Shown: one piece after another, positions 42,766-58,247 of the stretch
Numbering within the stretch: position 1 is the first letter of the stretch
How the letters are laid out: every line of letters starts with the position of its first letter
Made by a program: the position numbers and the translations under genes
Source: Prosthecobacter vanneervenii
GTDB lineage: Bacteria; Verrucomicrobiota; Verrucomicrobiia; Verrucomicrobiales; Verrucomicrobiaceae
Length of the DNA stretch: 64,000 nucleotides
NCBI RefSeq assembly: GCF_014203095.1
Contig: NZ_JACHIG010000004.1
Span: 1-64,000, forward strand
Direction: 5' to 3'
The notes under the pieces: model-generated
The model's database searches: none
What the model was told of the DNA's origin: nothing
The model's input: the letters and a program-made list of their open reading frames with translations, nothing else

Positions 42766-45700
42766 ATGAAACGCAAGACCACTACCCTGCCCGCCACAGA
42801 CGTGGCACCTACGATCTTCCGCAGCAGATTGTGGATGAGCGTGCTTTTTTCGCTTTCTCTGGCAGCAGGCATATCCACAGCTCGCGCCAGCATCGCCTAC
42901 GGCAGCATCAACAACTTCGACACGGTCAACGACACCGGCGTCGAGTGCCATGGCTTTGAGATCGAGCTGGATGACATCCACAGCACCGACATTACCTACA
43001 CCTACAATTACAACCACTACGGCGTGCCGGACATCAAGGAGGACAACACTGACCCGGCGCATCCGAAAGTCTTCATTCGCTGGCAGGGAAAAAAAAATCC
43101 CAATGGCACCTGGTCGGCCTATACAGCCATACCGGCGGCTCCGATTCCTCCGACGCAGGGGCATCAGTTCACCAATCCCGCTGTTAACTTCGGTGGCGAG
43201 CATTTCGGGGTGGGATACATCACCCAGCCTTCAGCGGTGCTTTACAACTGGCTGATCGACAACGGCAGCGGCACCCTGGTGCGCGGCGGTGCGGTGCAGG
43301 TCTCCACGCCTACCTTCACCTACAATCCGCCTGCCGCCGCAGCACCTGCGCAGGTTCAGGCGGTCATAGTGCCACCTCCGCCTCCAGCGCCACCGCCCAA
43401 GGAATTTGGCAAGGCCGTCTGGATGAAGGAAATCAAAACCACGACACACAATGCCGGCAAAGTGAAGCTTCGTGATTTGGTGTCTGAAGACCCCGCTGAC
43501 CCCGGCGGCAAAAACTGGAAAAACGGCGAGCCCGACGAAGTGGAGGTCGAGTGGCGCATCCTGCAGAAAAAAACCAGCGCTGCCGATGGCGGCCCGAACA
43601 ACCAGGTGGCCGCTGCTGCCGAGCCGCTGCCCAATGGCAATGAGGTCGTCACTCGCCGCTACGAATTCTACAAGTATGTGGGTCCGCTGGATGCAGAGAC
43701 AGGCGAAGCCATGGGGACGGCTGTAGGTGCTGATGGTGTGCACGGAACTGGCAGTGCCACCTACGCGGACCATTTCAATGGAGCCACGGGAGAATGGGTC
43801 ACCGTGACCACAGACATGACCACCCAGGTGCTGGTGGGAGATTTCACTGGTGCGCAGATGGCCGCTGTGGATGTGAACGAGGCACTCGGACTCATCGACC
43901 ACGTAGGAGACGGGCAGGTCGGAAAGGCTTTTGCCGCGCGTAGAATGATCGTGGAAGGTGGCGTGCCATTCACCGCTGTGCAGACCGGCACGGTGCCGCC
44001 TGGAATGACGTTTGATGAAGTCACCGGCATTCTCAGCGGCACGCCCAGCACCGCCGGGCAGTTTCAGTTCAGTGTCACCGCAAGCGACGGGGTAAACCCA
44101 GATGTGCAGAAGAACTACACCATGAACATCGCTGCCGCTGGAGCAGCGCTGCCGGCGCAGTCCTTGCTGGACACCGTGGTGTCTCCCGTGGGCGCGGGAA
44201 CGACGGCTGGAGATGGCTCCTACAATCCCGGTGACAACGCTGCAGTCTCCATCGCCACTACAGCTCCGGGCTACACCTTTCTAAACTGGACAGACAATGG
44301 TCAGGTCGTCAGCACACTTCCGGACTATACCGTGGTGATGGATGTGAACCACACGCTGGTGGCCAATTTTGTGCCTGCGACGGTGCAGTGGACCATCAGC
44401 GCCAGCGCCTCCCCTGTTGCGGGTGGCATGGTTAGCGGAGACGGCCTGGTGGACGACGGCACCAGCGTCACGCTCACGGCCATTCCCAATGCCGGCTACG
44501 TCTTTACCAGTTGGACCGAGGCCGGGGCACTCGTCAGCGCCTCTGCCACTTATACCTTCACGGCCTCTGCGGACCGTACCTTGGTTGCCAATTTTACCCT
44601 GGCTCCCACCTATAGCATCACCACCTCGGCAGCTCCGACGGCAGGAGGCAGCACCAGTGGCGGCGGCACTTATGCCAGTGGTGCCAGCGTTACTGTCACA
44701 GCCACTCCGAATGCCGGCTACACATTCGTCAATTGGACTCAAAACGGCACTCAGGTCAGCTCCGCAGCCAGTTACACGTTCAACGCCACCACCAGTCGTG
44801 CCCTGGTGGCCAATTTTGTGCTCAATGGCGGAGCTTTGCGCACCATTGCTGCCAGCTCGAGTCCAGTGGCAGGCGGCACCGTTTCCGGGGCGGGCACTTA
44901 TGCAGACGGGACCAGTGTCACCGTCACAGCCAGTCCGGCGGCCGGGTACAAGTTTTCCAAATGGAAAGAAGGCAGCACCACGGTGAGCACCTCGCCCAGC
45001 TACACCTTCACCGTTTCGGCGAATCGCACACTGGTGGCCTCCTTCTCTCAGTCTTACAAAGTTACATGCACTTCCAGCCCGGCCAATGGCGGCAGCACTG
45101 AGGCAGACAGCCCCAGCTACAGCCCTGGAGACAACGGTAATGTGAAAGCCACCCCGGCTGCGGGTTACCAGTTTGTCAGCTGGACGGAGAACGGCGCTGT
45201 GGTCAGCACCAATTCGACCTACAACTTCACCAACGTCAGAGCTAATCACGCCTACGTGGCCAACTTTATGCCGGTGGGCGGACTGCTCATGGCAGTGAGT
45301 GCCTCACCTGCTGCCGGTGGTGTGGTTTCAGGCGGCGGCGCTTGCATGGTGGGAGACAGCGTCACTGTCTCTGCCACGCCAAATGCGGGCTACGTTTTCA
45401 CTGCCTGGACCGAGGGGGGAGCCGTGGTCAGCAATGCAGCCAGCTATGCTTTTCTGGCTTCGGCAAGCCGCACGCTCGTGGCCACCTTTACGGCGGGCTA
45501 CGGCATCACCACCAGTGTGCAGCCACCCACGGCAGGCACGACCGGTGGCGGCGGAGTTGTCAGCGTAGGGGCCAGCACCACACTCAGCGCCACGGCCAAT
45601 CCGGGCTACTCCTTCATCAACTGGACGGACAGTCAGGGAAACGTGGTCAGCACCAATCCAAGCTACTCTTTCACTCCTGCAGCCAGCGGTGCCTACACCG

Positions 45701-47820
45701 CCAATTTCAGCTCCTTGGTCGCAGGCATTCCGTTCAACTTTGACAATGCCACCCCTGCGCTGAACACAGATGCCCCGGTGCCATTCACGCAGCTCATGGT
45801 GGGGTACACCGCCACCTTCAGCTCGGATGCAGACGGTGCCTTTACGACGCGATCCGATGCCGCCTCGGGTCGAACACTCTCCAAGTTTTCAGGGCTCTAT
45901 CTTGAATCTGTCTCTGATGCGGCACAGCTCGACATCAGGCTGGATCAGTCTGTCACCGGTATCAGTCTGGACTTTGCCACGATCGAGGCGCTCACTGTTC
46001 CGGTGGCTTCAACTCTGCAACTCACCGCCATCGACAATTCATCAGGCGCGCCTGTCGTGGTTGGCACTGTCATCGCGCACGGGAGCGCGAGTGCTGGTGA
46101 TAGCCTGCCCTGCGGCAGCATCAGCTTTAATGCTGCTGGTGCGGTGTTTGACGAGGTCCTCCTTCAGCTCCCGGACCTGCCAGCCGGGGCGCAGCGTTTC
46201 ATTGTGGACAACATCGAGGTGAGCCCCGGTGGCAGCACGGGAGGAACCATGACGCTGGCGAATCCCAATTGGAACATCACGCTTTCAGATTTCGGCTATT
46301 CCGACTTCCTGCTCGATAACACGGCGGGTTTCGTCGGGCGCGAGTATCTCTCTGGCGAATGGGGCAGCGCCGTAGCTTATCAGGTGGGCGGGCAGGCTCA
46401 TGCGCCCACCTGGCTGGAACCTGCTTTCTTGTATCCCGACTGGCAGACCAACTCTGACTTCCATGTCGTCACCGGCATCCATCTGGTGGGCGGAAACAAG
46501 GATGGGCTGCCGGTGGCGGAATCAGTGATCGCCAACAACGACATTGAGATCATCCTGCGCTTTGAAATGGTGGACACCGTTGTGGGCACGCCCATGGGCA
46601 TCACACCCGCCAGCGCGCCCGGTGCGGGAGCATCGATCAACAGCAACCGCTACGTAATGAACCAGACCTTTGTGGTGCGAAACATCAGCGGTGCTACCAT
46701 CACCAACTTGCAGCTCTTTCAGCTGTTGCACGGGCTCATTTCCCAGCATGGCCAGTACGACAACCGCAGCTACACCGGCAAGCTCTCCGAGTACCGCTAC
46801 GACGCCACCATGGCGGGCGTGGATGACAGCGCTGCTGGCAGTCAGAGCTCCACAGTCGGTCTGGAGGACTACATCGGCTTTCAGTCCAAAGTCGCACCGG
46901 CAGCTTACGAGATCGGCAGCTATGGCATCGTGGGCATTGATGACCATGTGACTGGCAAGCCCTCTGATGGTGTGCATCTCTCGATTGAAAAAAACTGGCA
47001 GAGCGCCCCATACACCAGCCGCCTCGGCCGCGATCTCTTCACACCCACCAGCCCATGGATAGCCGGTGGGCAGCGCTGGGATCTCGGCACGTTGGCTGCA
47101 GGTCAGAGTGTCAGTTTTGACATCGTCCTCAGTCTTCTCACCGGCACCAAGGTGAGCATCACCGGCGGAGGCAGCGGCGGTCAGGGTGGCGGGGGCAGCT
47201 GCAATGGCGGCTCTACGCATGTGGGTGGAGTGGATTTTGAATTCGACGAAATCACCCAGGAAGGAACCTTCTTCGGTGAGTATTCAGATGCCGACGACTC
47301 TGAACTTTCCGAGCGCACCACGGAGGGCGAGTTTGCCCTGCCGTCATTTGAGACACCGCATGCCACGCGCAGGCAGCTCTGGAAGCTCCAATACAACGGA
47401 ACCCATACAGGGAACATCAAGCTGAAGTTCGCTTATGATCCCAGCCTGCTGCCAGCGGGCTATGATGAAAACCAGCTCGTCATCTACCACTTCCGCAATG
47501 GTGTCTGGGAGAAGCTCAGCGGCAAGGTGGACACGACCAACAAGGTCATCGAGGCCGTGAGCCCCTCCCTCTCGCCATTCATGCTCGGAGTGAATGATGT
47601 GGTGGTGAAGCCCGACGTGGCGGTCTCTGTTTCCAATCCGGGAACTCTGACAGTCAGCTGGCCGGATTCCTTCACAGGCTGGATCCTGCAAGAAGCTGCA
47701 GATCTCAATGCCGCCAGTTGGGCCAACTCCACACGTCCTGTCACTTCGGCAGGCGGTACTTGCAGTGTGGATGTTCCCATCAGTGAAGGCTCGAAATTCT
47801 TCCGTCTCATGAGGCCCTGA
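42766..47820 (+). CDS. giant secreted InlB-repeat protein
   Basis: Exported protein of 1684 aa with a long N-terminal signal region (LWMSVLFSLSLAAGISTARA). The N-terminal domain (about 45-200) is beta-rich. A Pro-rich linker (about 200-215) precedes a further domain, then a putative Ig segment (GTVPPGMTFDEVTGILSGTP, about 410-460). Seven divergent InlB B-repeats (about 469-981) each have the pattern Y-x-F-x-x-W-x-(7-10)-VS-...-NRTLVANF or a close variant. The C-terminal half holds large beta modules, a Gly-rich stretch (GGGSGGQGGGGS) and a terminal domain ending in KFFRLMRP. It is probably a surface or matrix protein. It is coupled to the ECF sigma factor 10 bases upstream. Confidence 0.88.
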   Translation: MKRKTTTLPATDVAPTIFRSRLWMSVLFSLSLAAGISTARASIAYGSINNFDTVNDTGVECHGFEIELDDIHSTDITYTYNYNHYGVPDIKEDNTDPAHPKVFIRWQGKKNPNGTWSAYTAIPAAPIPPTQGHQFTNPAVNFGGEHFGVGYITQPSAVLYNWLIDNGSGTLVRGGAVQVSTPTFTYNPPAAAAPAQVQAVIVPPPPPAPPPKEFGKAVWMKEIKTTTHNAGKVKLRDLVSEDPADPGGKNWKNGEPDEVEVEWRILQKKTSAADGGPNNQVAAAAEPLPNGNEVVTRRYEFYKYVGPLDAETGEAMGTAVGADGVHGTGSATYADHFNGATGEWVTVTTDMTTQVLVGDFTGAQMAAVDVNEALGLIDHVGDGQVGKAFAARRMIVEGGVPFTAVQTGTVPPGMTFDEVTGILSGTPSTAGQFQFSVTASDGVNPDVQKNYTMNIAAAGAALPAQSLLDTVVSPVGAGTTAGDGSYNPGDNAAVSIATTAPGYTFLNWTDNGQVVSTLPDYTVVMDVNHTLVANFVPATVQWTISASASPVAGGMVSGDGLVDDGTSVTLTAIPNAGYVFTSWTEAGALVSASATYTFTASADRTLVANFTLAPTYSITTSAAPTAGGSTSGGGTYASGASVTVTATPNAGYTFVNWTQNGTQVSSAASYTFNATTSRALVANFVLNGGALRTIAASSSPVAGGTVSGAGTYADGTSVTVTASPAAGYKFSKWKEGSTTVSTSPSYTFTVSANRTLVASFSQSYKVTCTSSPANGGSTEADSPSYSPGDNGNVKATPAAGYQFVSWTENGAVVSTNSTYNFTNVRANHAYVANFMPVGGLLMAVSASPAAGGVVSGGGACMVGDSVTVSATPNAGYVFTAWTEGGAVVSNAASYAFLASASRTLVATFTAGYGITTSVQPPTAGTTGGGGVVSVGASTTLSATANPGYSFINWTDSQGNVVSTNPSYSFTPAASGAYTANFSSLVAGIPFNFDNATPALNTDAPVPFTQLMVGYTATFSSDADGAFTTRSDAASGRTLSKFSGLYLESVSDAAQLDIRLDQSVTGISLDFATIEALTVPVASTLQLTAIDNSSGAPVVVGTVIAHGSASAGDSLPCGSISFNAAGAVFDEVLLQLPDLPAGAQRFIVDNIEVSPGGSTGGTMTLANPNWNITLSDFGYSDFLLDNTAGFVGREYLSGEWGSAVAYQVGGQAHAPTWLEPAFLYPDWQTNSDFHVVTGIHLVGGNKDGLPVAESVIANNDIEIILRFEMVDTVVGTPMGITPASAPGAGASINSNRYVMNQTFVVRNISGATITNLQLFQLLHGLISQHGQYDNRSYTGKLSEYRYDATMAGVDDSAAGSQSSTVGLEDYIGFQSKVAPAAYEIGSYGIVGIDDHVTGKPSDGVHLSIEKNWQSAPYTSRLGRDLFTPTSPWIAGGQRWDLGTLAAGQSVSFDIVLSLLTGTKVSITGGGSGGQGGGGSCNGGSTHVGGVDFEFDEITQEGTFFGEYSDADDSELSERTTEGEFALPSFETPHATRRQLWKLQYNGTHTGNIKLKFAYDPSLLPAGYDENQLVIYHFRNGVWEKLSGKVDTTNKVIEAVSPSLSPFMLGVNDVVVKPDVAVSVSNPGTLTVSWPDSFTGWILQEAADLNAASWANSTRPVTSAGGTCSVDVPISEGSKFFRLMRP
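44170..45708 (+). repeat. seven divergent InlB B-type coding repeats
   Basis: Seven consecutive units of roughly 70-75 codons lie within the giant protein. Each ends in a phrase such as LVANF, LVASF, YVANF or LVATF and contains an aromatic-x-x-W core preceded by a Gly-Tyr. Unlike the MBG repeats at 8496, the units have drifted at the nucleotide level, which suggests an older array under selection for structure rather than recent duplication. Confidence 0.85.
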
Positions 47821-47979
47821 ATCTAATGACTGTTAGCACCGTGATTCTTGCTAAGATGCTCATCGGTGAGATTGAGTTTCAAGTTCACTCGCGGCATGTG
47901 TCAAGGTCTGGGCAGGAATTGGTTGAACAGCCTTAAGCCTGTGGGAAGATCGGCGTCTGAGATCACGAGAATCTCTCTC

Positions 47980-48462
47980 ATGAAGCGCATTTACCGCCTG
48001 CTTGCCTTGCTGCTGCTGCTTGCCTACGCAGGCTCGGCCACTGCGATCATGCCGGCTGTGTTCGCGGCATTGGCAACCATCGATGGCAGCCATCGAGTCT
48101 TGATCTGCCGGACTGAGCAGGGCACCCAGGTGCGGCTCCATCATCATGAAGATGACTACACACCCGAGGTGTGTGACCACAGCGGCATGCTGACCAGACT
48201 GGTCGTGAGCTTCTGCCGTCCTGCCACGGAGGGAGACCACAGCCTTTCCACCACTCAAGACTCAGGAACCCTCGCAGGCCCGGACGATGAGGAGGAGCGT
48301 CTCATCAAAGACAAGCATTGGGGTGTCCTGCCATGCTTGGAATTCACGCCCCGCTTTGCGCGAACGTCAGCGCTTCATGTGTCCAGTCTTGCTTGGAATG
48401 ATCAGCATGAAAATACCGCTGATACACTCAGACAGATCGCCACCATCAGGCTGCTGATTTGA
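47980..48462 (+). CDS. hypothetical secreted protein
   Basis: Small exported protein of 160 aa when started at the ATG at 47980 (MKRIYRLLALLLLLAYAGSATA signal). The mature part has two histidine-rich spots (RLHHHEDDYTPEVCDH near 50-65) and three cysteines (in LICRTE, EVCDH and SFCRP), which together could bind a metal. I do not recognise a family. The frame is open upstream to 47848, but that part shows no signal peptide and is probably not translated. It sits between the giant protein and the polyketide operon without tight coupling to either. Confidence 0.6.
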   Translation: MKRIYRLLALLLLLAYAGSATAIMPAVFAALATIDGSHRVLICRTEQGTQVRLHHHEDDYTPEVCDHSGMLTRLVVSFCRPATEGDHSLSTTQDSGTLAGPDDEEERLIKDKHWGVLPCLEFTPRFARTSALHVSSLAWNDQHENTADTLRQIATIRLLI

Positions 48463-48623: not shown

Positions 48624-49193
48624 ATGAAAATATCTCCTCTTCTTCTGCTCTTTCTCCTGGCCGGTTCTGCCCTGGCCGAAACCTCCCGCTGGTCTGGCAC
48701 CAGCACCATCGCCTTCAACGGCTCCTCCACACTCCACGACTGGGGTGGCAAGGTGGAGCCCAAACCCTTTACCACCATTGTCACTATGGATGCGGATGGA
48801 AATCCCACCAAGGTGGAGGCCACTGTCACCGTGGAGGTGTCCAGGATGGACACTGCCGAGGCCAAGCGGGATGAAAACATGCGCAAGGCCATGCAGGCCA
48901 CGGCGCATCCTCTCATCACAGCACTCATCGACACTCCCTTCACGGCCATCCGCCAGGGAGATGCCGCTCCTGCCACCCTGCCCTTGAAGCTTACGATGCT
49001 GGGCCAGACGCAGACCGTCATCGGCAAAATCAGCCGGTGGCATCACCAGGGTGACAAGGCTTCCTTTGATCTCGATATCGATCTCTCCCTGAAGAAAAGC
49101 GGCATCACGGTCCCATCTGTTCTGCTTTTCATCCGAGTGGGCGATGCCATCCGCGTGCATGCCAGCGTCTCCCTCAAACGCCACCATTCTTGA
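48624..49193 (+). CDS. YceI-family lipid-binding protein
   Basis: Exported lipocalin-like protein of 189 aa with a signal peptide (LLLLFLLAGSALAE). The mature part carries YceI features: FNGSSTLHDWGGKV, KVEATVTVEVSRMDT, the acidic/basic turn AEAKRDENMRKAM with HPLITALI, and LPLKLTMLGQTQTV. YceI proteins form a beta-barrel that binds isoprenoid or fatty-acyl chains; the Thermus homologue TT1927b was solved with a polyisoprenoid quinone. Here the stop is only three bases before the type III polyketide synthase start, so it appears to be the first gene of that operon and may carry its lipid product across the periplasm. Confidence 0.85.
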   Translation: MKISPLLLLFLLAGSALAETSRWSGTSTIAFNGSSTLHDWGGKVEPKPFTTIVTMDADGNPTKVEATVTVEVSRMDTAEAKRDENMRKAMQATAHPLITALIDTPFTAIRQGDAAPATLPLKLTMLGQTQTVIGKISRWHHQGDKASFDLDIDLSLKKSGITVPSVLLFIRVGDAIRVHASVSLKRHHS

Positions 49194-49196
49194 TTC

Positions 49197-50357
49197 ATGC
49201 CCGCCTACATTCACCACATCGCCACGGAGACGCCGGAGTTCATCTACAGCAATGAATTCACGCGTGATCGCATGAAGGGCTGGATCTCCGAGCCGCGTGC
49301 CCAGCGCCTTGTCGAGATGATCTATGACCGCACAGGGATCGAGACGCGCTACAGTGCCAGCGACGACTTCATGAAGGAGGAAGGTGCGCTCTTCCGCACC
49401 CAGCCGGACGGCTCGCTCAATTCGCCAGGCACCGGAGAGCGAAATGCTCTCTATGCCAAAGCCTCGCGGGAGCTCGCCGTGAAGCTCGCACGCAAGACGC
49501 TGGCGGAGTGTCCGCACTTTGCCAAGGAGGAGATCACCCACATCGTCTTCGCTTCCTGCACCGGCTTTGCCAATCCGGGGCCGGATTACCACATCATGCG
49601 CGAGCTGGGACTCAACGAGAGCGTGGAGCGCTACACCGTCGGCTTCATGGGCTGCTATGCCGCCTTTCCCGCGCTGCGCATGGCCGCGCAATTTTGCGAA
49701 GCCAATCCGCAGGCTGTGGTGCTGGTCATGTGCCTGGAACTCTGTTCACTCCATCTACAGGTGAGCGAAAAACCGGAAAGCATCGTGGCCAATGCGCTCT
49801 TCGCCGATGGCGCGGCCGCTGCCATCGTCAGCGCGCGCGAGCCGCAGAGGGACCGTCCCAGCTTCCGCGTGCATGGCTTCCGCTCGGCGCTCGTGCCCTC
49901 CAGCGAGGCGCACATGGCCTGGGATATCGGGAACAACGGCTTCAACATGGTTCTCTCCGCCTATGTGCCCGAGCTCATCGGCAGCAACATCCGCGACATC
50001 CTTGGCGGCATCCTCGACAAGCATGGCCTAAGCGCGACAGACATCGACGAATGGGCCGTTCATCCGGGTGGGCGTGCCATTCTGGACCAGATCGAACAGC
50101 AGCTTGCGCTGCCTGCCTCCGCGCTGGAGATGTCTCGCAGTGTACTGCGGGACTATGGCAACATGAGCAGTCCCACCGTGATGTTTGTACTCAAAGGCTT
50201 CCTCGAAGAAGCGGAAACCAAACGGGCCATGACCTGCGCCATCGCCTTTGGCCCTGGTCTTACAGTGGAGACCGCCGTCCTCGAGCGCTGTGGTGCGGCC
50301 ATTCCGCCCGTGGAAACGGTGCAACCTGCCATTATGACTCAGGCCGCAGTACCATGA
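49197..50357 (+). CDS. type III polyketide synthase
   Basis: Chalcone-synthase-like enzyme of 386 aa. It condenses a fatty-acyl starter with malonyl-CoA units and cyclises the chain to an alkylresorcinol, alkylpyrone or related product. The catalytic triad is complete: Cys153 (TVGFMGCYAAFPALRM), His289 (WAVHPGGRAIL) and Asn322 (DYGNMSSPTVMFVL). The thiolase fold is complete, and the C-terminal FGPGLTVET motif matches the family loop GPGLTVE. The following four genes are coupled or closely spaced (FAD monooxygenase by ATGA overlap), so the product is probably a tailored phenolic lipid, as in Streptomyces srsABC and Azotobacter arsBC. Chain length cannot be read from the sequence. Confidence 0.92.
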   Translation: MPAYIHHIATETPEFIYSNEFTRDRMKGWISEPRAQRLVEMIYDRTGIETRYSASDDFMKEEGALFRTQPDGSLNSPGTGERNALYAKASRELAVKLARKTLAECPHFAKEEITHIVFASCTGFANPGPDYHIMRELGLNESVERYTVGFMGCYAAFPALRMAAQFCEANPQAVVLVMCLELCSLHLQVSEKPESIVANALFADGAAAAIVSAREPQRDRPSFRVHGFRSALVPSSEAHMAWDIGNNGFNMVLSAYVPELIGSNIRDILGGILDKHGLSATDIDEWAVHPGGRAILDQIEQQLALPASALEMSRSVLRDYGNMSSPTVMFVLKGFLEEAETKRAMTCAIAFGPGLTVETAVLERCGAAIPPVETVQPAIMTQAAVP

Positions 50358-51526
50358 ACACCACCGACTACGACGTCATCATCGTCGGCGGCGGGCCTGT
50401 GGGTCTTCTGCTCGCCTGCCTGCTCAAACAGCAGGGGCAGCGCATTCGTGTGTTGGAGCGCCGCACTGAGTCCATCGCACACTCCGCAGCCATCGGCATC
50501 ACGCCGCCCTCCCTGCACATTTTGGAAAAACTGGGGCTCGCCTCCAAATTCATCTCCAGCGGGGTAAAGGTGCGCGACTGCTTTGTGCATGGCCAGCGTG
50601 GAAAGCTCGGCTGCGTCTCCTTCCGCGAGATCCCGGACGAGCACCGCTTCATCCTCTCGCTGCCGCAGGTCACCACCATCGCCCTTTTGCAGGATCATCT
50701 GGGTCCGGAGCACTTCGAAGCTGGCTGCGAGGTTAGCTACGTGCGGCAGACGGCGGATCACTGCGAGGTGCAGGCCGGCGGGAGCAGACTCACGGCGCGC
50801 TTTGTGGTGGCGTGTGATGGCAGCCGCAGCTCCGTGCGCAGCGTCATCGGCATGCGTGCGCCGGGCCGCTCCTACGACTGCCATTTTGTCATGGGCGACT
50901 TCGTGGACCGCAGCAGCTTTGGAGACGAGGCACACCTCTTCTTCACTGCAGCGGGTTCGGTGGAGTCCTTTCCCCTGCCCGGTGGGCAGCGCCGGTGGGT
51001 GGTGCAGACAGACACACGCATGGACCGCCCGCCTCCCGGATTGGTCAGCATGCTGACCAAACAACGTACCGGCATCGACGTCCCTGCTGCAGACCAAGTC
51101 AATGAGAGCGTCTTTACCCCGCGCAAGTTCAACTGCGACCGCTACTACGAAGGGCGCATCCTTTTCTGCGGAGACGCCGCACACGGGATGAGCCCCATAG
51201 GTGGCCAGGGCATGAACACAGGCTTTGCCGATGCGGAATTTCTCGCCGAAATCCTGACGCGCAGCGATCCCCTCAAGCTTTTGCCCGCCTACAACCGCTA
51301 CCGCCGCAAGGCCGCTAAAACGGCCATCTTCCGCGCCGAGTGGGGCATGTGGCTCGGTACCTGGCGCGGGCGTGTACGCTCAGCACTACGGGACTTCATT
51401 TTGAAATACCTGCTCTGCCAGGGCCCCGTGGCCAGGCACATGGGCTCGTTCTACGCCATGCTCACCATTCCTTTTAACACCCTCAAACGCGTTCCTGCCG
51501 CCAGCCTGCAGCCGCGCACCCTCTGA
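50354..51526 (+). CDS. FAD-dependent aromatic monooxygenase
   Basis: Class A flavoprotein hydroxylase of 390 aa, started at the ATG that overlaps the polyketide synthase stop (ATGA). The ADP-binding Rossmann motif is VIIVGGGPVG (residues 8-17), the second FAD/NADPH motif is CDGSRSSVRSVIG, and the third is FCGDAAHGMSPIGGQGMNTG, so all three flavoprotein-hydroxylase fingerprints are present. Relatives hydroxylate phenolic rings with NAD(P)H and O2. In srsABC the equivalent enzyme (SrsC) converts methylated alkylresorcinol to a quinone; that role is inferred here from gene order. It is followed nine bases later by a methyltransferase gene. Confidence 0.92.
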   Translation: MNTTDYDVIIVGGGPVGLLLACLLKQQGQRIRVLERRTESIAHSAAIGITPPSLHILEKLGLASKFISSGVKVRDCFVHGQRGKLGCVSFREIPDEHRFILSLPQVTTIALLQDHLGPEHFEAGCEVSYVRQTADHCEVQAGGSRLTARFVVACDGSRSSVRSVIGMRAPGRSYDCHFVMGDFVDRSSFGDEAHLFFTAAGSVESFPLPGGQRRWVVQTDTRMDRPPPGLVSMLTKQRTGIDVPAADQVNESVFTPRKFNCDRYYEGRILFCGDAAHGMSPIGGQGMNTGFADAEFLAEILTRSDPLKLLPAYNRYRRKAAKTAIFRAEWGMWLGTWRGRVRSALRDFILKYLLCQGPVARHMGSFYAMLTIPFNTLKRVPAASLQPRTL

Positions 51527-51535
51527 TTTTGCCTC

Positions 51536-52384
51536 ATGTCCGACTCCTCTACTTACATCTCCACCATCGAAGGCGCAGCCTCCCACTACGACGACCTCGA
51601 CCAGTTTTACCGAGAAATCTGGGGCGAGCACATCCACCACGGCGTCTGGTTCACCGGTAAGGAGACCGACACTGAAGCCGCTGAAAATCTGGTCAAAATC
51701 GTCGCCGACCTCGGCCATCACAGCCCTGGTCTGAAGGTCTGCGACATCGGCAGCGGCTACGGCACCACCGCCCGCATCTTGGCGCAGAAGCACGGTGTCG
51801 ACATCACCGGCATGACCATATCCGCTGTGCAGGTTGCATATGCCGAAAAGCACAATTCAGTGCCCGGACTCACCCATTTCATGCTGCGGGACTGGTATGA
51901 CAACCAGCTGCCGGACAACCACTTCGACATCGTACAGACCGTTGAAAGTCTGGAGCACATGCCCGACCTGCCCGGCTTCTTCCGTGAATGCTACCGGGTC
52001 ATGAAGCCAGGCGGCCGCCTGGTGGCCACCGCCTGGATGTCTTGTGAAAATCCCGACACCTTTGCCCGGCGGCATTTCATCGATGCCATCACGCGCGAGG
52101 CTCAAATTGCCGGCGTCAGGCCAGAGAGCGAATTCCGCGCTGCCACTGAGGGCGCAGGCTTTGTGAAATATCAGTTCAAAGACTACGCCCCGCAGGTGAA
52201 ACGTACCTGGCCGCTCTGCGCCCTGCGCACAGTAAAGGGGCTGCTGACGAAATCGCGCTACCGCCGTTTCCTGTTCAGTTCCCGCAATCCGAACCGCATT
52301 TTTGCCCTGACACTGTTCCGCATCTGGCTGGCCTACGAGCTGGGCATCCAGCGTTACGGAGTCTTCAGTGCCGAAAAGCGTTGA
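51536..52384 (+). CDS. SAM-dependent methyltransferase (tocopherol/sterol-type)
   Basis: Class I methyltransferase of 282 aa. Motif I is VCDIGSGYGTTARIL (about 68-82), followed by DITGMTISAVQVAYA, and motif post-II VQTVESLEHMPD. The sequence around GMTIS and YVAEKH-like positions matches the gamma-tocopherol/sterol C-methyltransferase branch, which methylates lipid or quinone substrates. The C-terminal helical half (about 190-282) is Arg/Phe-rich and could sit at the membrane. In context it is the likely O- or C-methyltransferase for the polyketide synthase product, comparable to SrsB in function but not necessarily in sequence family. Confidence 0.9.
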   Translation: MSDSSTYISTIEGAASHYDDLDQFYREIWGEHIHHGVWFTGKETDTEAAENLVKIVADLGHHSPGLKVCDIGSGYGTTARILAQKHGVDITGMTISAVQVAYAEKHNSVPGLTHFMLRDWYDNQLPDNHFDIVQTVESLEHMPDLPGFFRECYRVMKPGGRLVATAWMSCENPDTFARRHFIDAITREAQIAGVRPESEFRAATEGAGFVKYQFKDYAPQVKRTWPLCALRTVKGLLTKSRYRRFLFSSRNPNRIFALTLFRIWLAYELGIQRYGVFSAEKR

Positions 52385-52414
52385 ACCGGCACCAGAATTG
52401 ATTAAACACCGCCC

Positions 52415-52777
52415 ATGCCTGTAAGCGAAGAACGCCAGCAAGAACTCGCCAAATCCCTCAAGCGCTGCAGCGCGGAGACTTTGGCGGCCGCCATTCGATT
52501 CGACGAGACCAAAAACCTCGATGAACTGCCCGCTATCATCCTCGGCGTGCTGGAGCGTGACGCCGCCAACCCGCGCCCGGATGGCATGGCCTCCGTCACG
52601 GACGATATGAAGCTGGTCGATGACATCGGCATGGACTCCTTTGGCATGATCGAAGTGGTGATGACGGCCGAGGAAGTGCTCGGCCTCACCATCGCTACCG
52701 AGGAGATGGGCAGCATCAGCACTCTGGGCGACCTGAAGAAATTCCTGCGTACCAAACTCGGCGCCAGCCATTCATGA
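52415..52777 (+). CDS. acyl carrier protein with N-terminal extension
   Basis: Acyl carrier protein of 120 aa. The phosphopantetheine serine is Ser75 in IGMDSFGMIEVVMTAEE. The four-helix core is therefore preceded by about 39 residues more than a typical 78-aa AcpP, where the serine is at position 36-37. The extension is alpha-helical and charged. The gene overlaps the ketoacyl synthase start by four bases (ATGA), so the two proteins are made together. It probably carries a growing or finished acyl chain for the type III synthase; the extension may mediate docking. No phosphopantetheinyl transferase gene is in the cluster. Confidence 0.9.
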   Translation: MPVSEERQQELAKSLKRCSAETLAAAIRFDETKNLDELPAIILGVLERDAANPRPDGMASVTDDMKLVDDIGMDSFGMIEVVMTAEEVLGLTIATEEMGSISTLGDLKKFLRTKLGASHS

Positions 52778-54033
52778 AGCGCGTCGTCGTCACAGGCCTG
52801 GGCTTCATCTCCAGCATTGGCAACAACCGTGCCGAAGTCACCCAGAGCCTGCGCGAAGCACGCTCCGGCATTGAGTTTGTGCCTGAGCTGGCCGCAGCCA
52901 ATGACCGTGTGAAACTGGCGGGCACAGTGAAGGGGTTTGATTTCCCCTCCTCCGACCCACTCGACTGGACCTTCCCATCCCACGTGCAGCTCAACCGCGC
53001 CCAGCTGCGCACCATGGTGCCCAACTCGGTCTTTGCCACCGCTGCCATGCAGGAGGCCATCGCCGATTCTGGACTGCTCCCCGAGCAGGTTTCAGATCCG
53101 CAGACCGGGCTCTACTGCGCCTCCGCAGGCTCACCCTGGATGACTTATCTGGCCATGGACTCCGTGCTCAAGCGAGGCCCGGCCCGCACCTCGGCACCGG
53201 TCGTCATCGCTGGCATGCCGAATTCCCTGCACCTCAATCTCACCGCACGCTTTGCCATCAAAGGAGCCACGCTGGCCTTTAACAGCGCCTGCGCCTCTTC
53301 CTCCCACGCCCTCGGCCACGCCTGCGACATGATCCGCCTGGGCCGGCAAAAGCGCATGTTTGTCGTCGGTGCTGAGGATGCGCAGCAGATCCACACGATT
53401 CTCCCCTTTGCCTCCCTGCGTGCACTTAGCTCGCAAAGCGATCCTTTTTTGGCTCCTCGTCCGTTTGATGCAGGTCGTGATGGCTTCATCATCACCGGTG
53501 GCGGAGTGGTGCTCGTGCTCGAAGAGGCCGAACTGGCTGCCGAGCGTGGCGCCAAAGTGTATGCCGAGGTCAAAGGCTGGGGCCAGAGCTCCGACGGCTA
53601 TGATGTCGTCGCACCCGATCCCTCCGGCAGCGGACTCGCACGCGCCATGACGAATGCCATGCAGGACGCGGACCTCGCTCCGGAAGCGATCGATTATATC
53701 AATGCCCACGCCACGGCCACCCAGGCCGGAGACATCGCCGAACTCAGCGCCCTGAAGACCGTCTTCACTGGAGACAAACGCCCCAAGGTCAGCAGCACCA
53801 AGGCACTGACCGGCCACGGCCTCTGCCTCGCAGGTGCGCTGGAGGCGGGCATCAGCTGTCTGGCTTTGAGTGAGGGCTTCATGCCTATCTCCGCCAAGAT
53901 CCAGAATCTCGATCCCGCCAGCGAAGGCGTGTCCATCCTCACCAGCCCGACCGATCAGGCTCCGCGTGTGGCCATGAGCAACTCCAGCGGCTTTGGCGGC
54001 TCGAATGTGGCGCTGATTTTCTCGGCTACTTGA
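52774..54033 (+). CDS. beta-ketoacyl-ACP synthase (KAS II/FabF-like)
   Basis: Condensing enzyme of 419 aa. The catalytic triad is Cys173 (FNSACASSSHALG), His312 (NAHATATQAGD) and His348 (STKALTGHGL), with Lys343 in its usual place, so it is competent for decarboxylative Claisen condensation. There is no adjacent ketoreductase, dehydratase or enoyl reductase, so it would rely on the housekeeping fatty acid enzymes or act on a special acyl-ACP. Coupling to the acyl carrier protein gene suggests a dedicated priming system for the type III polyketide synthase. The 3' end overlaps the convergent RND gene by eight bases (54026-54033). Confidence 0.93.
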   Translation: MKRVVVTGLGFISSIGNNRAEVTQSLREARSGIEFVPELAAANDRVKLAGTVKGFDFPSSDPLDWTFPSHVQLNRAQLRTMVPNSVFATAAMQEAIADSGLLPEQVSDPQTGLYCASAGSPWMTYLAMDSVLKRGPARTSAPVVIAGMPNSLHLNLTARFAIKGATLAFNSACASSSHALGHACDMIRLGRQKRMFVVGAEDAQQIHTILPFASLRALSSQSDPFLAPRPFDAGRDGFIITGGGVVLVLEEAELAAERGAKVYAEVKGWGQSSDGYDVVAPDPSGSGLARAMTNAMQDADLAPEAIDYINAHATATQAGDIAELSALKTVFTGDKRPKVSSTKALTGHGLCLAGALEAGISCLALSEGFMPISAKIQNLDPASEGVSILTSPTDQAPRVAMSNSSGFGGSNVALIFSAT

Positions 54034-56563
54034 TCCAGCGCCATCGGGCAAACTGGAGGTAAAGTACGGGCAACAGCACCAGCGTGAGCACGGTGCCAAA
54101 CAGCAGTCCAAAGATGTGCACCGCTGTCAGCGGCCGCCACAGCTCACCGCCAGTCACGGCCAGAGGGATTAGTCCGCACACCGTGGCAAACACCGTGGCC
54201 AGCACAGCACGCAGGCGCACCAGCGCGGCCTGCATGAGTGCAGGCTCCAGCTCCATGCCAGCGGCGCGTTCTTCCTCAATGAAATCCGAAAGCACGATGA
54301 TGTGGCTGACGATGACGCCTGCCAGACTCACGATGCCGATCAGCGCCATGAACCCGAAGGACGCATGCGTGGCGGCCATGCCGGCAAACGCGCCGATCAA
54401 TCCCAGCGGCACGGTCAGCATGACCACCACCGATTTCATGAACGAGCGAAATTGTATCATCATCGCCAGTGCGATCAGCGCCAGAGAGATTTTCAGCACA
54501 CGTTCCATCTCCCGCTGGCTGGTGGTCAGTTCGCGTTCCTCGCCACCGAAGGCAATGCCGGAGGCGGGGAAGGCAGTGCGCGCCTTGGTCAGAATGCCTG
54601 AGGCCAGTGTGCCGAAAGGGGCCATGGCTTTCACCGTCACCGTGCGCTGCTGGTTGATGCGCGTGATGATGCCCGAGTCATCATGCACCTTGTAGGCTCC
54701 CGCATCGACCAGCGCCTGACGCACCTGCGCGATCTTGGCCGGGATGTCATCTCCGCTTATTTCGATCTGGATCGGCGTTTCCAGCGCAGGCCCCTGCTCG
54801 ATCTGTTTCACGAGGCAGAGTGCATCCTTGATCTCGCGGTCAAAGACCTCGCGCAGATGCACGATCAGTGCGGGCACATCCTCCGCATGGCGCGTGTTTA
54901 CCAGCACCTGGGCCACGTTCGCCGCAGGCTGACGCGGCAGGACATTGTAGTAAAACATCGGCGTGCCGCCGCCGCTGACGAGGATCGCGCTTTGCACCGC
55001 CTCCTCCTTTTGCAGCCTGTCGCCGATTTGTGCGGTGACCTTCCGCGTCTGCTCGATGCTGCTTCCCTCCGGCAGGCGGAGGTCGATCAGGAACTGATTG
55101 CGCTCCGCCACGGGGAAGAATTGCTTGCCAAAAAACGGGATGAGCGCCGTGCTGGCACCCAGCAGGCCGTAGGCGGCAATGATCGTGAGCAGCGGCCTGC
55201 GCAGCGCGAACTGCAGCGCGTTTTTGTAAAACGGAATGAGCCGGTGCAGCGGGTGCGAGCCGTTGACGGCATCGAATCCTTTCTGCCCGCGCAGCAGGTA
55301 GTAGCCCAGCAGCGGGATGAAGGTCATGGAAACGATGCGTGAAGAGACCAACGCCAGCGTGATGACCACGGGCAGCGAGATGATGAAGGCACCCATGTCT
55401 CCCGGCAGCAGGGCCAGCGGCAGGAAGGCTACGATGTTGATGATCGTGCCAAAAAAGATGGCTCGCCGCAGCTTGAAGGGGCCCAGCCAGGCGGCGATGC
55501 CGCGCGGCTGCCCGTCTGCCAGCTCGCGGTTGATCCCGTCCGAGGCCACCACCGGATCATCCACCAGCATGCCCAGGGAGATGATCAGCGCGGCAATGGA
55601 GATCTGCTGCAGCGGCACATGCAGCGCCGCCATGCCGCCCAGCGTCATTGCAATTGTAAGCGGGATGGCCACGGCCACGACCAAGGCCGTGCGCCAGTCC
55701 ATCAGCAGCAGCGCCACCAGCACCACCACCACGACGGCCTCGATGAAACAGCGCAGGAATTCCCCAATGCGGTGCGCCGTGGCTGCAGGCTGGTCGGAGA
55801 CAGTGATCACCTTCACACTCTCGGGCAGTTTGAGCCCGCCGATTTTCGCCAGCACCGCATCTTTGAAATCATGAATGATGTTTCCCGCCTTCATCTCCAC
55901 CGCCACCAGCACGCTCTCGGCAGGCTGCAGCTGGCCATCTTTTTCACGGTGCAGCGTGCGCACGCTGTAGCCAGCAGCGACCATGTCCTCAAAAGAGGCG
56001 ATCATCTCCGGCGCATGCCCAAACTGCCGGATGCGCCCGCTGCTCGGCACCGTCCTCAGCGCCCTCTCGATCTCATCCGCACCGCTCACAGCTTTTTCTC
56101 CCAGCACCGCAAAAAGCAGAGTGGCGGGCAGCTGGTAGTCCGTCTCCAGGCGCGGCTCCAGGCTGCCTTCCGGTAGCTTCACCGTCTTCAAAATCTCGCG
56201 TGTCTTCCGCCACTGTTCATCAATCGCTTTCTTGCGGTCGGTGTAGAGTCTGATGACAATGGTGGACACATTGTCCTGCGACTGAGACTGCAGCTTTTCC
56301 AGCGTGGGCAGATGTTTGAGCGCGGCTTCCAGCGGGGCTGTCACCTCCTGCTCCATCTGCGCGGCAGTCAGCAGCGGGTGCACAGTCACCAGCACTGCAT
56401 CGTGTGTCGGAAAGGTGGGGTCCTCCTGCTGTGGCAGACTTTGAAATGAGAGCCAGCCCCAGGTGAGTACCGCCGCCATGGACAGCCACCCCAGCAGCCG
56501 ATGCTCCACGAAGAAACGCGTGATGATGGCATTGGCGGGAGCAGATGCGGAAGACGAATCCAT
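54026..56563 (-). CDS. compact RND-family transporter
   Basis: Inner-membrane proton-driven transporter of 845 aa, started at the ATG at 56563. TM1 is at about 22-41 and TM2 at about 270-289. The TM4 region has GMLVDDPVVASDG with the paired Asp335/Asp336 of the proton relay, and TM10 is GVIVSHIIVLSDF. The two periplasmic loops are about 228 and 212 residues, each some 75-100 shorter than in AcrB (1049 aa), so part of the porter and funnel/docking region is absent from both halves. No membrane-fusion or TolC gene is adjacent. It is convergent with, and slightly overlaps, the polyketide operon, so export of the lipid product is a reasonable inference. Confidence 0.87.
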   Translation of the reverse strand: MDSSSASAPANAIITRFFVEHRLLGWLSMAAVLTWGWLSFQSLPQQEDPTFPTHDAVLVTVHPLLTAAQMEQEVTAPLEAALKHLPTLEKLQSQSQDNVSTIVIRLYTDRKKAIDEQWRKTREILKTVKLPEGSLEPRLETDYQLPATLLFAVLGEKAVSGADEIERALRTVPSSGRIRQFGHAPEMIASFEDMVAAGYSVRTLHREKDGQLQPAESVLVAVEMKAGNIIHDFKDAVLAKIGGLKLPESVKVITVSDQPAATAHRIGEFLRCFIEAVVVVVLVALLLMDWRTALVVAVAIPLTIAMTLGGMAALHVPLQQISIAALIISLGMLVDDPVVASDGINRELADGQPRGIAAWLGPFKLRRAIFFGTIINIVAFLPLALLPGDMGAFIISLPVVITLALVSSRIVSMTFIPLLGYYLLRGQKGFDAVNGSHPLHRLIPFYKNALQFALRRPLLTIIAAYGLLGASTALIPFFGKQFFPVAERNQFLIDLRLPEGSSIEQTRKVTAQIGDRLQKEEAVQSAILVSGGGTPMFYYNVLPRQPAANVAQVLVNTRHAEDVPALIVHLREVFDREIKDALCLVKQIEQGPALETPIQIEISGDDIPAKIAQVRQALVDAGAYKVHDDSGIITRINQQRTVTVKAMAPFGTLASGILTKARTAFPASGIAFGGEERELTTSQREMERVLKISLALIALAMMIQFRSFMKSVVVMLTVPLGLIGAFAGMAATHASFGFMALIGIVSLAGVIVSHIIVLSDFIEEERAAGMELEPALMQAALVRLRAVLATVFATVCGLIPLAVTGGELWRPLTAVHIFGLLFGTVLTLVLLPVLYLQFARWRWIK

Positions 56564-56657
56564 GCGGGCTGGGGCTGGCTCTAGTTTTCGCCCCGTCTGG
56601 GCGGCTGTGCAATGACGCACGTTGCCCTCTCGTAGGAGTGCGTTCATACTGCAGCAC

Positions 56658-58247
56658 ATGATCCGGCCCCACACGCCGCCAGAAACTCCCGCCGACAAGC
56701 CCGCCCGCAGCGGCGAGGCGGCTGGCACGTGGGCGTCTCCCTGGGAGCTGGATCTGGAGTGGATGGATGCGCCAAAGGGAAAGCGGATTCGTCCTGCAGA
56801 GCCGAAAAAAGCTGCGACTCCTCCGGTGCACACGCCTCAGGCCATGCCTCCTCCTGTTGCTGCTTCGTCACCCGCGCAGAGGCAGCCGGTCAGTGAGGTG
56901 GAAAAAGACGACTTCATACCAAGGCAGGCGCCGCCCTCACGGCTCGTCAAAAAAGCCCAGCCTCCACCACGTGGCGAGAGCGAGGCCTCCTGGCCCACCC
57001 TCATCATTCTCAGCATGGGGCTCCTCGCCTTTGTCTTCATCATCTGGCTGTATGTGGACGATCAGACGCCAGGTCTGGACACTGACTTTCTGGTCAACCG
57101 GCCGGTCGATCAGGCGGCCACGATTCAGACGCCCGAAAAGCTGCGCAAACTCCTCGGTTCCCTGGTGCCTTTTGATGATGGTCAGCAGCAAGGCACCCCC
57201 CCCTGGTTGTGGGACACCCCCACGCTTTCCCGCGTGGTGCAGGCCAACGGTCTTGCGCTCGAAAACCTGCGCGATCTGCTGGAAGACGCCGACTGGCATC
57301 CCGCGCACGCTTCATGGCATGCCGCAGACCCTTGTGTTGATCCACGCTGGCGGCAGCTCATGGTGCTCAAGCAGGCTGAGGCCGCCTACCTTTCCCGGCG
57401 TATGCAGGAGGATTCCGCCTTCACCGCCGCCATCGACCTCGCCGAGCTCGGCTGGCGGCTGGAGCAGCTCTGGGCCTGGCCGTCTTGCTACCGGCAGGCG
57501 CTTCAGGCGCAGGCGCTCGCTTCCCAGACCATGGCAGACCTGCTGCGGCAGACACGGCTGCCTGAGGCCACCCTGCGTCAGTTCCAGCGTCAGTTCAGCG
57601 TCTGCCAGCCCACGGCGGAGATGCTCGTGGGGGCCATGAGCGCTTTTTACGTGCATGAAAAGAAGCTCATCCTCGGTCCCAAGAGCGGAGAGAGTCTGGA
57701 TACGATGCCCGGCGGCGTGGCACTGCGACGTCCCGGACGGCTTTTCTTCAAGCCGTATGAGACTCTGCAGCATTTCGCCACCGCATTCCGGCAGATCAAG
57801 GCCGAGGTGCCCTCTCCCCTTGCCCTCACCTCCGAGGTTCGGCTTAAGGAGTCCATCAACAGTGAAGCCTCCTACCAGCCCAACTCCTCTGGTCTCGCCT
57901 ACTACCACCAGCGGATGAGGCTCTACACGCCCATGCCTGCCGAGTTGGGTCTGGCACGCGCCCGCGCAAACCTCATCATCACCCTCTTCGCCGTGCGGCG
58001 CTGTATCGCCGAAAAGAAATCTGTGCCGGCCAGCCTCGAAGAACTGCGCACCTTCAACTTTCTCCTCGATGTTCCCGTAGACCCCTACTCTGGCGCGCCG
58101 CTGTTCTACAACCGCACCAGCGGCCTCATCTGGTCCGTGGGCCGAGACCTCAAGTCTGCCAATGGCTCACCCACAGAGCCTCCTATGAGCGACGCCATGG
58201 AGCCTACCGTGGAAGTCGGCATCGCCGTGGCGGCTGTGGCAAAGTGA
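56658..58247 (+). CDS. hypothetical single-pass membrane protein
   Basis: Protein of 529 aa started at the ATG at 56658. The N-terminal 115 residues are Pro/Ala/Lys-rich and probably cytoplasmic. One membrane helix follows at about 122-142 (LIILSMGLLAFVFIIWLYV), then a helical extracytoplasmic domain to about 430. The C-terminus has LITLFAVRRCIAEKKSVPA and VDPYSGAPLFYNRTSGLIWSVG, a pattern seen at the C-terminus of many Planctomycete and Verrucomicrobial envelope proteins related to pseudopilin tails. No enzyme motif is visible. It is divergent from the RND gene and ends exactly next to the OppA-like gene stop. Confidence 0.78.
   Translation: MIRPHTPPETPADKPARSGEAAGTWASPWELDLEWMDAPKGKRIRPAEPKKAATPPVHTPQAMPPPVAASSPAQRQPVSEVEKDDFIPRQAPPSRLVKKAQPPPRGESEASWPTLIILSMGLLAFVFIIWLYVDDQTPGLDTDFLVNRPVDQAATIQTPEKLRKLLGSLVPFDDGQQQGTPPWLWDTPTLSRVVQANGLALENLRDLLEDADWHPAHASWHAADPCVDPRWRQLMVLKQAEAAYLSRRMQEDSAFTAAIDLAELGWRLEQLWAWPSCYRQALQAQALASQTMADLLRQTRLPEATLRQFQRQFSVCQPTAEMLVGAMSAFYVHEKKLILGPKSGESLDTMPGGVALRRPGRLFFKPYETLQHFATAFRQIKAEVPSPLALTSEVRLKESINSEASYQPNSSGLAYYHQRMRLYTPMPAELGLARARANLIITLFAVRRCIAEKKSVPASLEELRTFNFLLDVPVDPYSGAPLFYNRTSGLIWSVGRDLKSANGSPTEPPMSDAMEPTVEVGIAVAAVAK

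Follow-up and report, generated by a model that had tools for sequence, protein, structure and literature searches.

We asked what is made by six adjacent genes of Prosthecobacter vanneervenii, located at positions 48624-54033 on the + strand of the 64,000-nucleotide stretch that we analyzed (positions 1 to 64,000 of contig NZ_JACHIG010000004.1, here called the window). The genes encode, in order, a YceI-family lipocalin, a type III polyketide synthase (PKS), a flavin adenine dinucleotide (FAD) monooxygenase (FMO), an S-adenosylmethionine (SAM) methyltransferase, an acyl carrier protein (ACP), and a ketosynthase (KS). What is new here is an operon of the type of srsABC of Streptomyces griseus and pkqABC of Mycobacterium smegmatis that has a clade-specific chain-supply pair, the ACP and KS, and a widely conserved YceI partner. 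We consider it moderately probable that the product is a membrane lipid carrying a redox-active ring, made by a pathway in which all six proteins take part.

Each of the six open reading frames runs from ATG to TGA with no internal stops, the domains of all six proteins exceed the Pfam gathering scores, and the intergenic distances are 3, -4, 9, 30, and -4 bases in gene order; we take the six genes to form one operon. The initial annotation of this DNA, made from its letters and open reading frames, had given the same six genes and gaps, and its coordinates and families agreed with ours. Its statement that all catalytic residues of the condensing enzymes are present was also confirmed: Cys153, His289, and Asn322 of the PKS did not vary among the 139 sequences aligned (138 loci plus the window, 111 different), and Cys173, His312, Lys343, His348, and Phe407 of the KS, like Ser75 of the ACP, were identical in 42 of 42 (the window and 41 loci, near-copies included). 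PF02797 was matched only once in the 6.66-Mb host genome. A promoter scan of the operon region, limited to sigma-70 consensus sites, found none, and a terminator scan of the region found fewer terminators than in shuffled sequences.

The gene set was then compared among relatives. A search with the PKS gave at least 586 matching stretches, and the closest named relatives among the best 80 of these, which were the ones used, were Prosthecobacter and other Verrucomicrobiaceae assemblies. In a family sample of 68 genomes, 48 of them genus members including the window's own, the PKS family was present in 58 and the KS (E ≤ 1e-100) in 28. Of 59 PKS places selected, all but one (the second in G020) were compared, which gave 58 loci, and two KS contigs were added; weak places, cut-off places, and the window itself were not among them. 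A close KS was carried by 25 of the 48 genus genomes. Twenty-six genus genomes gave a KS match, and in all but one of them the KS adjoined the PKS. In the 24 other genus loci with a KS beside the PKS, the PKS, FMO, ACP, and KS were each present in all 24, the YceI gene in 21, and the window-type methyltransferase in 14, and the complete six-gene set was found in 14. These counts demonstrate that the methyltransferase is not a fixed part of the operon.

The YceI gene is a real partner of the PKS gene far beyond the genus. Of 240 genomes sampled across the phylum, 26 had a PKS match (E ≤ 1e-60) and 81 had a YceI match; a YceI gene lay no more than 3 kb upstream of the PKS on the same strand in 12 of the 26, and in 10 it was within 100 bases. 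Random placement, uncorrected for relatedness, would be expected to give 0.015 such genomes, and this excess and the synteny counts together rule out a chance neighborhood of the operon genes. Among the best 80 related loci, YceI was upstream (within 2.7 kb) in 41 and downstream in 2, and it was directly upstream in 23 of the 24 PKS loci found in the order to which the Desulfuromonadales assembly L035 belongs. The window YceI protein has an N-terminal signal-like stretch (a by-eye reading), and its AlphaFold model (mean pLDDT 81.8) matched 1wub, 5ixg, 5ixh, and 1y0g. The best Foldseek match was the polyisoprenoid-binding protein 1wub (E 1.7e-10), and BcnB, BcnA, and E. coli YceI were also found. 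A YceI domain above the Pfam cut-off and a lipocalin-like barrel in the model are consistent with the proposal that this protein is a periplasmic lipid carrier. Most solved YceI structures contain an isoprenoid such as ubiquinone-8 (PMC9113575), and one planctomycete-like PKS operon includes a gene for a lipid/isoprenoid-binding protein (PMC10896814), so an association of the YceI type has been seen at least once before. We give binding of the finished product by YceI an even chance.

The ACP-KS pair sets the Prosthecobacter operon apart. The best PDB match of the KS was the FabB-type 3oyt (E 6.1e-85), and the protein scored 362 bits against the 630-bit cut-off of the FabB (KAS I) equivalog, NCBIfam PRK07967; by these measures it is classed as a FabB/FabF-type enzyme and not as the housekeeping FabB. 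The possibility that it is the cell's ordinary fatty acid KS was rejected, the nearest of eight KS-domain matches in the genome being only 34% identical. The ACP carries an N-terminal extension of approximately 55 residues, conserved in 8 of 8 aligned proteins, and carrier domains in the PDB match it mostly from residue 57-60 onward. On a quick PKS tree with SH-aLRT support only, the KS-bearing loci needed one change, with a support of 99 against the other labeled rows and with 60 unlabeled rows uncounted; the unlabeled row L021, whose contig ends in the FMO gene, fell just outside the KS-bearing clade (fork 85). Since a single change suffices, the pair most likely joined the operon once, in this clade.

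Relatives of the pair were also found apart from any PKS. In two genomes of other genera, G001 (KS 64% identical) and G011 (69%), the KS and ACP lie on short draft contigs without a PKS (L149 and L148, respectively, the L148 pair beside Cupin_8/JmjC-type and NAD_binding_4 proteins), and the genus member G050 has a 47% identical KS plus an ACP. Among the other 239 phylum genomes, 32 had KS homologues with 44 to 58% identity; these 32 belong to the same class, and none had a PKS match (E ≤ 1e-60). At the 16 of these places that were viewed, an ACP preceded the KS in several, and some had glycosyltransferases or a short-chain dehydrogenase nearby. In other families of this class (L154, L165-L180), each genome had one to three KS homologues, some beside a B12-binding radical SAM protein. 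In the window's own genome (G000), a KS domain and a carrier-protein domain at approximately 44-52 kb of contig C14 each lie in an open frame of 2955 aa, which suggests a single large synthase with several domains.

We read the ACP-KS as an older lipid-tailoring pair that would have been recruited to the PKS operon, and we lean toward its supplying the acyl starter to the PKS. The passage of chains in Azotobacter vinelandii from the ACP domain of ArsA to ArsB and ArsC makes acyl-ACP transfer plausible here. A possible but not probable rival is that the pair builds an unrelated fatty chain, perhaps one destined for an envelope glycolipid, and shares only its regulation with the PKS operon. This would fit the PKS-free contigs of G001 and G011, the PKS-free phylum genomes, and the dehydrogenase and glycosyltransferase neighbors, but it accounts poorly for a close KS that lies inside the PKS operon in 25 genus genomes, directly between the PKS and FMO in loci of the L010 type, and for a single joining event retained across the clade. 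The initial annotation had called the two added functions a priming module and a lipid carrier. Both additions held up, the pair as clade-specific (25 of 48 genus genomes, one tree change) and YceI as a partner in the wider survey; priming itself stays a proposal, and the carrier role draws on family and fold.

Tailoring of the ring is predicted from the FMO and the methyltransferase. The open frame around the FMO start (ATG at 50354) is longer than the gene and extends back to 49508. The protein contains GGGPVG, CDGSRSSVR, and GDAAH...GGQGMN, which we take to be motifs typical of its enzyme class, and matched rifampin monooxygenase best in the PDB, as well as the polyketide oxygenases PgaE/CabE; we propose that it is a ring hydroxylase. 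The methyltransferase, with 3bus as its best PDB match (E 6.7e-21), is proposed to modify the ring by O- or C-methylation. Fourteen of 18 fetched genus loci without a KS had a gap of 600 to 900 bases between the PKS and FMO, a class that also includes loci with a separate methyltransferase gene in that place and whose frames were checked in part. In L018, L019, L020, and L037, the gap encodes an N-terminal extension of the FMO that was judged by eye to be a membrane domain; this domain bears a weak resemblance to phospholipid methyltransferases (PEMT, E 0.13 in L019 and 0.0096 in L037, both below the cut-off). L068 and L074 have a fusion of the FMO with a methyltransferase-like domain, and in L046 a single 779-aa open frame starts at the PKS and continues over the FMO.

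Relatives in the order of L035 appear to exchange the hydroxylase. The PKS was found there in 24 of 136 genomes and a U32 protein in 13, and full-size loci have the order YceI - PKS - (FMO) - MMPL - secreted c14 - (U32) - UbiE-like. Within the 24 PKS loci, MMPL was present in 19, c14 in 15, and a UbiE-like methyltransferase in 22 by tblastn, a label that denotes profile scores for L040 and tblastn likeness for the other loci. The FMO occurred in 11 loci, the U32 protein in 8, both in none, and neither in 5. G399 and G400, whose PKS loci have neither, carry the U32 protein elsewhere, which brings the PKS genomes with U32 to 10. Ten U32 and 11 FMO genomes without overlap give a p of 2.8e-6 if drawn independently; because the tree groups the four FMO loci among the best 80 and also most U32 loci, the true number of events is small. 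When 13 genomes were searched in full, none of the seven U32 genomes had an FMO (E ≤ 1e-20), four others had an FMO of at least 61% identity and no U32, G301 had only a 32% match, and G312 had neither. A 4-kb contig of G333 holds MMPL, c14, U32, and UbiE-like genes and no PKS, and G401 and G403 have a U32 protein (41% identical) no more than 2.1 kb from a distant PKS (27 to 28% identity).

The U32 protein of L035 scored 38 bits against the 22.4-bit cut-off of Pfam Peptidase_U32; for the UbiU equivalog, that of L040 reached 16.8 bits against 440, and three other frames gave no match at E ≤ 0.01. On these scores it is assigned to the same family as UbiU and is not UbiU itself. Ten cysteine columns, which may include ligands of a 4Fe-4S cluster, were invariant in 6 of 6 aligned proteins. 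UbiU and UbiV are U32-family, O2-independent hydroxylases in ubiquinone synthesis (PMC6747719), and the U32 protein may possibly be an O2-independent hydroxylase of a polyketide quinone. The L040 methyltransferase scored 117 bits against 20.1 for Pfam Ubie_methyltran and fell under the NCBIfam cut-offs TIGR01934 (153.3 versus 158.35) and PRK00216.1-5 (169.4 versus 216). Given the UbiE-like enzyme in nearly all of these loci, we most simply read these operons as completing a quinol ring, with the window FMO as the aerobic form of that step. Several side observations were made at these loci. The U32 gene lies in YceI-PKS-UbiE-like operons, never with an FMO in the locus, in L035 (12122-13399), L032, L038, L039, L040, L042, L055, and L195-L197. 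In the U32-bearing L039, 35 residues with 60% identity to the FMO are encoded just past UbiE, 6.16 kb downstream of the PKS start, and are possibly what is left of a replaced monooxygenase. The c14 protein (L035:11457-12092, secreted, between MMPL and U32) matched no Pfam family above the cut-off, and a fold search gave no PDB match at E ≤ 0.001, which leaves the guess of a LolA-like carrier unsupported.

We therefore consider it likely that the product of the window operon is hydroxylated or a quinone, the quinone step gaining support from the hydroxylase swap. A rival that we think unlikely is that the product stays a phenol, a hydroxylated and methylated alkylresorcinol resembling hierridin, and serves as a structural membrane or surface lipid with no part in redox transport. 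Operons of planctomycetes and cyanobacteria that combine a PKS, an oxidoreductase, and a methyltransferase have been linked to alkylresorcinols and hierridins (PMC10896814, PMC8086630), Azotobacter cyst membranes use alkylresorcinols as lipids (PMC4824345), and the methyltransferase differs between loci, all of which would suit such a phenol. Conversely, the mutual exclusion of the FMO and the UbiU/V-family protein and the frequent UbiE-like methyltransferase point to quinone chemistry, and YceI lipocalins bind quinones (PMC9113575). That the quinone would act as an electron carrier or antioxidant is a tentative suggestion.

The ring itself would come from the PKS, for which PKS18 was the best PDB match (E 1.8e-55). 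Planctomycete PKS genes expressed in Corynebacterium gave long-chain alkylresorcinols in four of six cases, and the two product-less genes lie outside such operons (PMC10896814). Residue Trp242 of the window PKS was invariant in all 139 aligned sequences; the same column holds Leu in PKS18 and ORAS and Trp in Steely1, and by our column mapping, with ArsB and ArsC absent from the 60 matches listed, it would be the position of ArsB Trp281. In Azotobacter, the ArsB substitution W281G abolished alkylresorcinol production and the pyrone maker ArsC has Gly at this position (PMC6274091, PMC9927152), and the resorcinol or pyrone outcome is "partially attributed" to this difference (PMC9927152). Given that mapping, Trp242 would favor cyclization to a resorcinol rather than a pyrone. 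We think it highly probable that the PKS makes a long-chain alkylresorcinol. The opposite outcome, alkylpyrones or another non-resorcinol ring, is improbable: PKS18, the nearest solved relative, makes pyrones, but PKS18 has Leu where Trp242 is invariant, DpgA-type chemistry was rejected on a model score of 174 bits against a cut-off of 425, and a pyrone would presumably offer little substrate to the FMO and to quinol-type methyltransferases. Separately, L005/L099 contain a 54-residue PKS fragment (67% identity) approximately 1.5 kb upstream of the PKS and upstream of YceI, which looks as if left by an old duplication.

Taken as a whole, the proposed pathway would begin with the dedicated KS lengthening or tailoring a fatty acyl group attached to its partner ACP, with the ketoreductase, dehydratase, and enoyl reductase borrowed from the cell. 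The acyl-ACP would then pass its chain to the PKS, which would make three malonyl additions and close the ring by a C2-C7 aldol reaction to give a 5-alkylresorcinol. The FMO would hydroxylate this ring, making it oxidizable to a benzoquinone, the methyltransferase would methylate it, and the YceI beta-barrel would bind the finished lipid and hold or shuttle it in the periplasm. Of this, the sequence data bear directly on which genes are present, on their intact active sites and conserved synteny, and on the single joining of the ACP-KS pair. The chain length class, cyclization, hydroxylation, and methylation are those suggested by the named enzyme families, and we infer the acyl-ACP transfer, what YceI would carry, and a role, if any, in respiration or antioxidant defense.

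Several observations weigh against this pathway. YceI was absent upstream of the PKS in 14 of the 26 PKS genomes of the phylum sample, was not within reach in 37 of the best 80 of at least 586 related loci, and had no place in 3 of the 24 KS-bearing genus loci; it is therefore a common partner and not a required one. Ten of those 24 loci lack the window-type methyltransferase, and 9 of the 10 carry c7, another methyltransferase-like gene downstream of the KS that has only subthreshold Pfam matches and was not found in the window. Twenty-three of the 48 genus genomes, G050 included, have no close KS, so this chain supply is dispensable for the PKS as such, and in the 32 phylum genomes with a KS homologue and no PKS, the KS therefore does something else. 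The equivalence of Trp242 and Trp281 rests on our column mapping. In the L035 order, both the FMO and the U32 protein are missing from three PKS genomes, and the genome-wide absence of the FMO covers 13 genomes only. Finally, the planctomycete compounds differ in function from those of other producers according to Milke et al., and the accessible part of that work reports no quinone from them (PMC10896814).

A broader reading, which we put forward as speculative and on balance doubtful, is an unrecognized, periplasm-facing polyketide-quinone system across Verrucomicrobiota, Kiritimatiellota, and Desulfuromonadales-like bacteria. In such a system YceI would carry a non-isoprenoid alkylquinone, the FMO (with O2) or the UbiU/V-family protein (in anaerobes) would hydroxylate the ring, and in Prosthecobacter-like members the ACP-KS, replacing the synthesis of an isoprenoid tail, would determine how long the tail is. 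The quinones of Desulfuromonas-like anaerobes are described as isoprenoid. If true, this reading would link type III PKS lipids, YceI lipocalins, and O2-independent ring hydroxylation, which are usually studied apart, and would offer a candidate YceI cargo open to direct testing, together with a non-isoprenoid route to quinones that could be tested in Desulfuromonas-like anaerobes and in cultured Prosthecobacter.

The features of the locus are listed in Table 1. The RND transporter gene is convergent with the KS gene and overlaps its end by 8 bases; being on the opposite strand, it was not counted in the system. By a by-eye count, it lay directly downstream in 13 of the 14 methyltransferase-bearing KS loci and in none of the 10 without the window-type methyltransferase, one of which had a 22-residue RND remnant. 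The two proteins encoded upstream of the operon each formed a cluster with members in 3 of 81 loci, and the 541-aa protein family was near the operon in 9 of 81, with the window among the loci in every case; its L010 relative gave no Pfam match.

Table 1. Genes of the operon and its surroundings, in window coordinates
Feature	Coordinates	Strand	Length	Domain scores or remarks
YceI-family secreted lipocalin	48624-49193	+	189 aa	Pfam YceI 40.8 bits (cut-off 23.7)
Type III PKS (PF00195/PF02797)	49197-50357	+	386 aa	Chal_sti_synt_C 104.8 bits, Chal_sti_synt_N 98.3 bits (cut-off 27)
FAD monooxygenase (FMO)	50354-51526	+	390 aa	FAD_binding_3 155 bits (cut-off 22)
Class I SAM methyltransferase	51536-52384	+	282 aa	Methyltransf_11 75.2 bits (cut-off 21.2); CMAS 67.4 bits
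ACP	52415-52777	+	120 aa	PP-binding 26.2 bits (cut-off 20.8)
KS	52774-54033	+	419 aa	ketoacyl-synt 121.5 bits, ketoacyl-synt_C 112.8 bits (cut-off 20.8)
Repeat-rich protein	42766-47820	+	1684 aa	Upstream of operon
Small protein	47848-48462	+	204 aa	Upstream of operon
RND transporter	54026-56833	-		
541-aa protein family	56622-58247	+	541 aa	

The operon was compared with known systems. The initial annotation had likened its core to srsABC, and this parallel holds: the window has an intact Cys-His-Asn PKS, with PKS18 as its nearest structure, and an adjacent flavin hydroxylase and SAM methyltransferase, in keeping with the srsABC/pkqABC logic. In those systems, a type III PKS, a SAM methyltransferase, and a hydroxylase/oxidoreductase are likewise encoded in one operon, and the resorcinol ring is made first and then the quinone (PMC9927152). 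The window differs in its gene order of PKS, FMO, and methyltransferase, in the additional YceI and dedicated ACP-KS, and in that its product is a predicted one. Planctomycete PKS operons have the same three core functions, and no ACP-KS pair is described for them in the accessible text (PMC10896814). In a literature search of titles and abstract beginnings, with subscription papers largely outside its reach, none of the matches listed described an alkylresorcinol operon with a type III PKS that also contained an ACP-KS pair or a U32 protein, and the word YceI occurred in none of a set of 15 listed matches. The suggestion that this is a distinct and possibly undescribed version stands for the clade-specific pair and the wide conservation of YceI; the YceI link has its planctomycete-like precedent (PMC10896814). 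Overall, the earlier interpretation was partly supported.

As in arsABCD of Azotobacter vinelandii, a candidate chain supplier is encoded beside the alkylresorcinol synthase. ArsA supplies C23-C25 chains, which pass from its ACP domain to ArsB/ArsC (PMC4824345, PMC6274091). arsABCD encodes the fatty acid synthase ArsA and the phosphopantetheinyl transferase ArsD, whereas the six window genes contain neither an ArsA-type synthase nor such a transferase and instead encode a discrete 120-aa ACP, a 419-aa KS, and tailoring enzymes. Dedicated ACPs of the NodF type have partner KSs (NodE and others). In rhizobia, NodF and AcpXL are second ACPs likewise reserved for one lipid (PMC9386255); the likeness drawn to the window ACP is one of proposed role, and the acceptor in the window would be a type III PKS. 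Finally, the YceI/BcnA lipocalins that are linked to cytochrome b561 (LcoA) share the fold of the window YceI and have a lipid or quinone cargo (PMC9113575), whereas the neighbor of the window YceI is not cytochrome b561 but a polyketide lipid synthase.

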